Shown here one piece after another: positions 9,891 through 11,996 of a DNA stretch of 64,000 nt (within the stretch, counting starts at the first letter, position 1; each line of letters begins with the position of its first letter). The notes below the pieces were generated by a model that did no database searches, was not told the origin of the DNA, and saw only the letters and a list, made by a program, of their open reading frames with translations. The position numbers and the translations under genes were made by a program. Origin of the DNA: Acidobacteria bacterium RIFCSPLOWO2_12_FULL_68_19 (GTDB lineage Bacteria; Acidobacteriota; Vicinamibacteria; Vicinamibacterales; UBA2999); the NCBI GenBank assembly GCA_001767525.1, contig MELF01000010.1, forward strand, positions 42,235-106,234, in the 5' to 3' direction.

Positions 9891-11996
9891 ATGCACGCGC
9901 CGATGAAGTATGTGGAGAAGGGGATGGCGAAGCTGGCCAACCTCCTGTGGCACGTTCTGGCCGCCGCCAACCGCCTCCACCAACACCCGTCGTTCACGCC
10001 GGGCTGGTCCGACAAGCCGCTGCTCAAGTCGTGGCAGAAGACGAAGCCGCCCCTCGGGTGGCCGCGGCAGACCGACTCGCTTTGCCCGACCTGCGTCCGG
10101 GAGGCGCGGCAGGAGATCCTCGACGGCAAGAGAGACGTCTCGATCCTCCTCAACGAGAAGGTCGGCGAGATCAAGGCGACGATCCTCGAGAAGGACGGGA
10201 AGATCGTCATGGAGAAGGAGTGCCCCATCCACGGCCGGTTCGAGGACGTGATGGCGATCGATCCCGCCTTCTTCAAGCATCTCGAGCAGGTGTTCCCCGG
10301 TCGCGACATCCGGGCGCACAACGACGAGACGCTGCACAACCACGGGAGCTCCACCGTGCTCCACGGCCGCGGCGCGGTGCTCACCGTCGACCTGACGAAC
10401 AGATGCAACATGATGTGCGACCCGTGCTTCATGGACGCCAATCAGGTCGGGTTCGTCCACGAGCTGAGCTGGGAAGACATCAAGCAGGTGCTCGACAACG
10501 CCATCACCATCAAGCCGAAGCGGCAGATGTCGGTGCAGTTCTCCGGCGGCGAGCCGACGATGTCGCCCTACTTCCTGGACGCGGTCCGGTACGCCCGGAA
10601 GGTCGGCTACAACAGCGTGCAGGCGGCCACCAACGGCATCGAGTTCGCCAAGAGCGCCGAGTTCGCCCGGGCGGCGGCCGAAGCGGGGCTCCGTTACGCC
10701 TATCTGCAGTTCGACGGCATCGGCAACGCCGCGAACTCGCACCGGCGTGTCGGCAATCTCTTCGACGTGAAGCTGCGCGCCATCGAGAACCTCCACGACG
10801 CGGGCGTCGACATCGTCCCGGTGATCACGATCGTCAACGGCGTCAACAACGAGCAGGTCGGCCGCATCGTCGAGTTCGCGCTCCACAACCCGAAGCGGAT
10901 CAATTTCCTGTCGTTCCAGCCGGTGTCGTTCACCGGCCGGGACGAGGAGATCACGCCGGAGCGGCGGCAGGCGCAGCGGTACACGCTCTCGCACCTGGCG
11001 CACGACGTGAAGAAGCAGACGGGGATTGGCGAACCCACGCGCGACTGGTTCCCGATCTCGTTCATGTCGACCTTCACCGACTGGTCGGACCTGGTGCACG
11101 GGCCGGACTACGCCTGGGGCCAGCTCACCTGCGGGTGCCACCCGAACTGCGGCGTCGGCATGGCGGTGATGATCGACAAGAAAACCAAGGAAGCGGTCCC
11201 GGTCACCGCGTTCCTCGCGGCCGACCAACTGGCCAAGGACGTGGCGCTCGTCAACGACGCGGCCCGCGGCCGGGTCCTGTCGATCGCCGGCATGGCGCTC
11301 GCGCTGATGCGCAACTACGACCCGTTCAAGGCGCCGACGCACTTCCGCCTGGCTGACCTGCTGAAGAAGTTCGACAAGACGTTCGGCGCGACCAAGTCGG
11401 CGCAGCAGGGCAAGTACGGCAGCGTGGAGGGGATCCGCAGCAAGGCGGACATCGATCGGCGGCGCGCCGATCGCTGGAACTTCCTGTTCATCGCCGGCAT
11501 GTGGTTCCAGGACCTGTTCAACTACGACTTCCGCCGCACCGAGATGTGCATCATCCCGTATGCGACCCAGCAGGGCGAGATCTCCTTCTGCGCCTACAAC
11601 ACCGGCATCGGCTGGCGGAACATCGTCGAGAAGATGCACATGACCGCCACGCTCACCAGGTGGTACGAGGAGCACGGCCGCCACGAGATCTTCGCCGGCA
11701 ACAAGCAGGTGCCGCTGGCCAGCCGGGCGCATTCGCTCGTCCTGAACCAGGCGGCGGTCGAGGCCGGGCGGCAGACGGACCTCGACAAGCTGGGCATCGC
11801 GAGAAACGCGCGCGAGGAGAAGCTGCAGGCGCGCAAGAAGCAGCTCACGCCCGAGGAGGAGCTGTTCCACAAGGAGATGGAGCGGATCTACCGGCAGCAG
11901 GTGCTCAAGGAGCAGCCGACGATCCAGGTCCAGGGCCTCGGCGCGAGGCGCAGGAAGCAGGACGTCGCCGAGGTGGTACACACGCCGACGGTCTGA
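9891..11996 (+). CDS. Radical SAM protein, tetraether-lipid-synthase (Tes)-like
   Basis: A 701-residue radical SAM enzyme. The [4Fe-4S]/SAM triad CxxxCxxC is CNMMCDPC (Cys172, 176, 179), followed by SGGEPT. An N-terminal SLCPTC and ECPIHG pair precedes the core, and further cysteines occur later (LTCGCHPNCGVG, EMCIIPY, SFCAY). This arrangement of a small CPxC metal site, the radical SAM barrel and extra C-terminal cysteine sites is the layout of archaeal Tes, which couples lipid tails by C-C bond formation, and of bacterial relatives. The C-terminal 100 residues are lysine-rich and helical. The start is fixed by AAGGAG six bases upstream. It appears monocistronic. Family membership is good; the lipid substrate is inference. 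Confidence 0.7.
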   Translation: MHAPMKYVEKGMAKLANLLWHVLAAANRLHQHPSFTPGWSDKPLLKSWQKTKPPLGWPRQTDSLCPTCVREARQEILDGKRDVSILLNEKVGEIKATILEKDGKIVMEKECPIHGRFEDVMAIDPAFFKHLEQVFPGRDIRAHNDETLHNHGSSTVLHGRGAVLTVDLTNRCNMMCDPCFMDANQVGFVHELSWEDIKQVLDNAITIKPKRQMSVQFSGGEPTMSPYFLDAVRYARKVGYNSVQAATNGIEFAKSAEFARAAAEAGLRYAYLQFDGIGNAANSHRRVGNLFDVKLRAIENLHDAGVDIVPVITIVNGVNNEQVGRIVEFALHNPKRINFLSFQPVSFTGRDEEITPERRQAQRYTLSHLAHDVKKQTGIGEPTRDWFPISFMSTFTDWSDLVHGPDYAWGQLTCGCHPNCGVGMAVMIDKKTKEAVPVTAFLAADQLAKDVALVNDAARGRVLSIAGMALALMRNYDPFKAPTHFRLADLLKKFDKTFGATKSAQQGKYGSVEGIRSKADIDRRRADRWNFLFIAGMWFQDLFNYDFRRTEMCIIPYATQQGEISFCAYNTGIGWRNIVEKMHMTATLTRWYEEHGRHEIFAGNKQVPLASRAHSLVLNQAAVEAGRQTDLDKLGIARNAREEKLQARKKQLTPEEELFHKEMERIYRQQVLKEQPTIQVQGLGARRRKQDVAEVVHTPTV

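Follow-up and report, generated by a model that had tools for sequence, protein, structure and literature searches.

A Tes-superfamily radical SAM enzyme lacking the N-terminal [Fe4S4] cluster is a candidate for iso-diabolic acid formation in Acidobacteriota

In many Acidobacteriota, iso-diabolic acid is among the major lipids. It is also the building block of the branched glycerol dialkyl glycerol tetraethers (brGDGTs), which are used as temperature and pH proxies in soils and lakes, and there is still dispute over which organisms and enzymes make them. Which enzyme forms iso-diabolic acid in these bacteria? The question is raised by a gene for a Tes-like radical S-adenosylmethionine (SAM) enzyme at positions 9891-11996 (+) of a 64,000-nucleotide stretch (the window) of contig MELF01000010.1 from Acidobacteria bacterium RIFCSPLOWO2_12_FULL_68_19. 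Acidobacterial and other bacterial Tes homologues have already been proposed for brGDGT-type lipids (Zeng et al. 2022, PMC8941075; Halamka et al. 2022, PMC10087280), and a Black Sea study (PMC11868695) repeats that the role of the bacterial homologues is unconfirmed. Here, we find that the window gene encodes a Tes-superfamily radical SAM enzyme that is not an ordinary Tes. It belongs to a clade next to true Tes (in archaea, the enzyme that joins two membrane lipids at their tails), and this clade has lost one of the four metal cofactors of Tes, the cluster [Fe4S4]N. Judged from sequence and distribution, the clade protein is the strongest candidate for the enzyme that forms the membrane-spanning iso-diabolic acid lipids of aerobic Acidobacteriota.

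The assignment to the Tes superfamily is based on sequence, fold, and phylogeny. In a phmmer search against the sequences of the PDB, archaeal Tes/GDGT-MAS (MJ0619, in the following MjTes; 7tol/7tom) was found with an E-value of 3.7e-63 over residues 93-592, the next match having 2.2e-5, and the homology to MjTes is full-length at 32% identity. Pfam places the protein in the radical SAM superfamily (Radical_SAM PF04055, E-value 3e-20), with a CX3CX2C motif formed by C172, C176, and C179, and detects an N-terminal zinc ribbon domain (PF23545). Of the NCBIfam models, Tes ranks first with 313 bits, followed by TrsS with 209.5 bits, below the 490 bits set for that model (NF045646), and NirJ-type models with 72 bits. 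The AlphaFold2 (AF2) model, which was built with 53 relatives (mean pLDDT 72, pTM 0.79), adopts the Tes fold and matches 7tom with a Z-score of 25.8 over 465 aligned residues (model residues 56-600), while the runner-up, MoaA, reaches 18.1 over the barrel core only. In the tree, the clade is sister to true Tes. MjTes falls among the true Tes proteins, and the other radical SAM proteins of the window genome lie outside both groups; the root is not firm because the outgroup branches are long. Radical SAM matches among phage-protein families are weak. Among the named relatives, the top 80 have identities of 73-86% and nearly all carry the label Acidobacteriota, two bins being apparently mislabelled, and the nearest relatives among these and in the tree include Vicinamibacterales and Luteitalea. 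Thus, the PDB match, the fold rank of 7tom/7tol, and the tree bear out the Tes-like identification made in a first-pass annotation of this DNA. The tree that it had called for, in which grouping with cofactor maturases would have spoken against it, puts the protein next to the archaeal-Tes clade and apart from the other radical SAM proteins of the genome, and its guess of a probable acidobacterium agrees with the labels of the relatives.

How the clade differs from Tes becomes visible at the metal sites. We aligned 116 clade members with 33 Tes-type rows of Acidobacteriota and MjTes, and read the ligands off MjTes (PMC9433317). The cysteines C73, C77, and C80 that, together with a His, bind [Fe4S4]N in MjTes are kept in all 33 acidobacterial true Tes but in none of the 116 clade members, which at these positions mostly have Lys or Thr, then His and Ser, and share a conserved HxHG. 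In the window protein T, H, and S replace the triad within residues 143-158 (HNDETLHNHGSSTVLH; 10317-10364, like all following features of the gene on the plus strand). The remaining Tes sites are present. The rubredoxin-type iron site CxxC...CxxH, a motif described for MjTes (PMC9433317), is formed by CPTC (C65 and C68; 10083-10094) and CPIH (C111 and H114, equivalent to MjTes C33 and H36; 10221-10232), the latter reading CPIHG in full. C65 and C68 are found in 116/116 clade members and 28 of the 33 Tes-type rows, the other five having a gap. The radical SAM [Fe4S4] motif C172-x3-C176-x2-C179 (CNMMCDPC) is located at 10404-10427 and the SAM-binding GGEP motif, with G220 corresponding to MjTes G145, at 10545-10556; ten of the eleven positions contacting SAM or 5'-deoxyadenosine are conserved, Arg210 being variable. 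At the C-terminal cluster, [Fe4S4]C, residues C420, M537, C553, Y557, and C567 are invariant. C420 (MjTes C338) is part of CGCHPNC (C414, C416, H417, and C420; 11130-11150), which in the alignment contains two extra cysteines, C414 and C416. M537 (11499-11501; 116/116) corresponds to the labile cluster ligand Met439 and Y557 (11559-11561) to the active-site Tyr459 of MjTes (PMC9433317), and C553 (11547-11549) and C567 (11589-11591) align with C455 and C470. Based on their conservation, C420, C553, and C567 are the presumed ligands of [Fe4S4]C. The exceptions at the metal sites are a single clade member with one His substitution and a few Tes rows that have gaps because they are fragments. Because the motifs are nearly invariant in 116 homologues and aligned with the Tes metal ligands, they do not occur by chance. 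The first-pass annotation had listed CPxC, C-P-x-H-G, CNMMCDPC, and C-terminal cysteine sets, all of which are present, but it had overlooked that the [Fe4S4]N triad is absent.

The window protein would accordingly carry three metal sites, the rubredoxin iron, the radical SAM cluster, and [Fe4S4]C. Two Tes/TrsS-like types, from Chloracidobacterium and genome G116, keep the [Fe4S4]N triad, and its loss in the clade is therefore most simply a derived state. The loss suggests that [Fe4S4]N might be dispensable for the coupling chemistry. Since [Fe4S4]N is at the protein surface and the producing subdivisions (SD) are mostly aerobic, one may speculate that oxygen selected for its loss; cultivated members of these subdivisions are mostly aerobes, those of SD8 and SD23 anaerobes (PMC5900883). 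No mention of a clade without [Fe4S4]N was found in the literature searched, which may be incomplete, and the absence of the cluster looks new, as does the division of labour with true Tes discussed below.

In a survey of 297 genomes spread over the Acidobacteriota, with a best E-value below 1e-190 defining membership, the clade is represented in 143 genomes, with full-length genes except for a few that are truncated at the end of a contig. Nearly all genomes have it in families f17 (30/30) and f29 (18/18) and in the window organism's own family (10/10), and members were not found in some other families of the survey, such as f31, f46, and f49. True Tes, scoring above the cut-off of 450 bits, is encoded in 34 of the 297 genomes, and both genes occur together in 12. 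A second cluster-less paralogue group, 49-57% identical, exists in families f29 and f35 alongside the main group (L159 7939-9894, L161 7620-9611, and L168 7072-9024).

Iso-diabolic acid has been reported from subdivisions 1, 3, 4, and 6 (PMC13274423). In Acidipila rosea, Acidobacteriaceae ZG23-2, genome G217, and the window genome a clade member is the sole Tes/TrsS-type protein. In Edaphobacter strains, iso-diabolic acid amounts to 12-30% (PMC11354219). A single Tes homologue was found in E. aggregans, with 32% identity to the reference, Tes of M. acetivorans (Zeng et al., PMC8941075). Clade members are 29-33% identical to MjTes versus 37-47% for acidobacterial Tes-type proteins, so that the E. 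aggregans homologue fits the clade and not acidobacterial Tes, although the match is indirect because the reference was not MjTes. Chloracidobacterium validum BV2-C (G095), whose genus makes iso-C15:0 and iso-diabolic acid, likewise encodes a clade gene, as well as an FMO gene. The distribution of the clade and its being the only protein of the Tes/TrsS type in several Acidobacteriaceae thus support the candidacy for iso-diabolic acid bond formation that had been put forward from the first look at the sequence.

How might such an enzyme work? To join two saturated tails, MjTes abstracts hydrogen twice and passes through an intermediate in which a carbon is bound to the cluster, and its pocket accepts an ester-linked phosphatidic acid (PMC9433317). 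In the alignment, all residues tied to this mechanism are present in the window protein. It is probable that the window enzyme couples two iso-C15 acyl tails to ester-linked iso-diabolic acid without [Fe4S4]N, with substrate, product, and ester rather than ether linkage being predicted from homology and distribution. Two iso-C15 acyl-glycerolipids would be bound side by side and two SAM would be used in turn. In one tail, the terminal (omega) methyl carbon would lose a hydrogen and then be held by a sulfur of [Fe4S4]C until a radical is made on the second tail and the two sp3 carbons are joined. The rubredoxin iron, the radical SAM cluster, and [Fe4S4]C would be at work, and no N-terminal [Fe4S4] would be needed.

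If the clade forms the ester-linked lipid, what does true Tes do in the same phylum? In three Acidobacteriaceae-like genomes of family f17 (G265, G121, and G073), true tes lies downstream of the clade gene at a distance of 0.3-6 kb, with both genes on one strand. The domain PF09989, which we take to be that of PlsA/Ger-like ether-forming enzymes, is present in 24 of the 34 true-Tes genomes and in all 12 with both genes, compared to 17 of the 131 with the clade gene alone (counts uncorrected for shared ancestry). A link of the clade to ether-lipid genes was considered and rejected, because there is no association (29/143 vs 40/154, p 0.27, again uncorrected); the PF09989 association belongs to true Tes. 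A PF09989 (PlsA/Ger-like) gene was not found in the window genome. The comparison covers ether genes as defined by PF09989. The counts suggest that true Tes serves the ether-linked brGDGTs and the clade the ester-linked iso-diabolic acid. We propose, only tentatively, the complete scheme in which aerobic Acidobacteriota make ester iso-diabolic acid with their own lipid-fusing enzyme without [Fe4S4]N and tetraether brGDGT with true Tes plus PlsA/Ger. If this were true, the ester and ether membrane-spanning lipids of one phylum would come from two sister enzymes, and genomes would predict the producers of the brGDGT climate-proxy lipids. In genome G203 a true tes gene is followed on one strand by genes for a 1032-residue PF09989 protein and one further protein (L185 7949-14144), and this row is a candidate for a tetraether operon in an acidobacterium.

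Several observations weigh against iso-diabolic acid formation by the clade. With 313 bits the window protein stays below the curated cut-off of 450 bits of the Tes equivalog model NF045702, on which other clade members reach 310-350 bits. In most genomes the clade gene stands alone without lipid genes around it. Chloracidobacterium had to be rejected as a clean one-gene case: the match is not exclusive because there are two further Tes/TrsS-like genes. Finally, iso-diabolic acid may in fact be made in this phylum by another radical SAM enzyme, Mss, leaving another lipid role to the window protein. Mss is reported to form such lipids on expression in Escherichia coli (PMC11604127, PMC13274423), in which Ger has also been tested, and Mss homologues are known from 11 of 97 acidobacterial metagenome-assembled genomes of the Black Sea (PMC11868695). 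However, these genomes stem from a largely anoxic basin, and the window clade covers the aerobic groups producing iso-diabolic acid more broadly, which makes this explanation quite improbable.

Somewhat less remote, but still unlikely, is a lipid enzyme of the Tes superfamily with another reaction, such as C5/C6 methylation, ring formation, Gms-like cross-linking of two chains, or a later step on lipids that Mss or Tes has already joined. The loss of [Fe4S4]N, the variable Arg210, and the extra C414 and C416 could mark an altered reaction, and the coexistence with true Tes in 12 genomes and the adjacency in three could mean successive instead of parallel steps. Against this, the clade has kept the cluster and all residues that are linked to C-C coupling in MjTes, and in several Acidobacteriaceae there is no second protein of the Tes/TrsS type that could perform the coupling. 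A peptide or cofactor maturase (SPASM, MoaA, NirJ, or TrsS-like) would explain the weak matches to maturase radical SAM families over the core, and the zinc ribbon PF23545 is named for a supposed pterin methylase. We regard this as very improbable, because the Tes model scores 313 bits and the maturase-type models 209 bits at most, because the tree, the fold, and the alignment over the full length lead to Tes, and because there are no precursor peptide or cofactor genes nearby; in addition, the authors of the MjTes study could not confirm a pterin methylase role for that protein (PMC9433317).

Formation of iso-diabolic acid by the clade enzyme, our preferred explanation, would have practical consequences. 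The gene is single-copy and the clade covers the producing groups, making it a direct target for knock-out or expression. Three cysteines are enough to tell the clade from true Tes, which would sharpen environmental surveys in which all 'Tes homologues' are at present counted together. That [Fe4S4]N has been lost in nature also bears on the question raised in PMC9433317 about the purpose of the extra cofactors in Tes.

The gene consists of an open reading frame of 701 codons (P0001) from ATG 9891 to the stop codon ending at 11996. ATG 9891 is taken as the start because a ribosome-binding site AGGAG (9880-9884) is read in the sequence 6 bases upstream and because the N-terminus is conserved in 53 relatives, whose alignment shares M-H/K-x-P-x-K-Y with a nearly invariant M1. 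Residues 3-29 (9897-9977) form an amphipathic helix (AF2 model, pLDDT mostly 91-96; hydrophobic moment about 0.5) that has no counterpart in the MjTes fragment and might possibly contact the membrane. The C-terminal tail (residues 593-701; 11667-11993) is charged and helical and comprises about 110 residues in the clade versus about 8 in Tes-type proteins. No conserved gene neighbourhood exists over 90 clade loci, a QueG-like neighbour (a tentative naming) being present in 15 and the rest scattered, and there is thus no operon argument for the window gene. Its neighbours, gltB and a ribbon-helix-helix/PIN-domain pair, look unrelated; the pair, directly downstream at 12155-12813 (+), is likely a toxin-antitoxin module. 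Elsewhere in the window, two parallel four-gene cassettes of the molybdopterin dehydrogenase type (48921-54028 and 57004-62074, both on the minus strand) each encode a MoCoBD large subunit, an FAD subunit, a [2Fe-2S] subunit, and a cytochrome b561-like protein. They are 61-81% identical to each other and represent an old tandem duplication.

Compared to known systems, the clade belongs to the same wider family as the TrsS radical SAM (seleno)protein and the TrsS/Tes-like proteins of Chloracidobacterium and G116, all of which are matched by both the Tes and the TrsS models. Unlike the clade, the latter keep the N-cluster cysteines. In both organisms a TrsS/Tes-like protein adjoins a homologue of prolipoprotein diacylglyceryl transferase (L178 4838-7061, L179 5102-7271, and L182 6244-8473), and this type has an Asp at the position of the Tes ligand C470. 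For bacterial Mss (membrane-spanning lipid synthase) of Thermotoga and Clostridia, the proposed product class is the same as for the clade, and Mss models have been reported to superpose on Tes (PMC13274423). The acidobacterial true Tes, of which those of Koribacter and Solibacter are 40-42% identical to archaeal Tes, as reported, are of the same superfamily as the clade but keep [Fe4S4]N (33/33) and track with PF09989. With archaeal Tes/GDGT-MAS (MJ0619, 7TOL/7TOM) the window protein shares the fold, the iron site of the rubredoxin type, the radical SAM cluster, and [Fe4S4]C including the labile Met and the active-site Tyr, whereas it does not have the [Fe4S4]N ligands and adds an N-terminal helix region of about 60 residues and a tail of about 110 residues.
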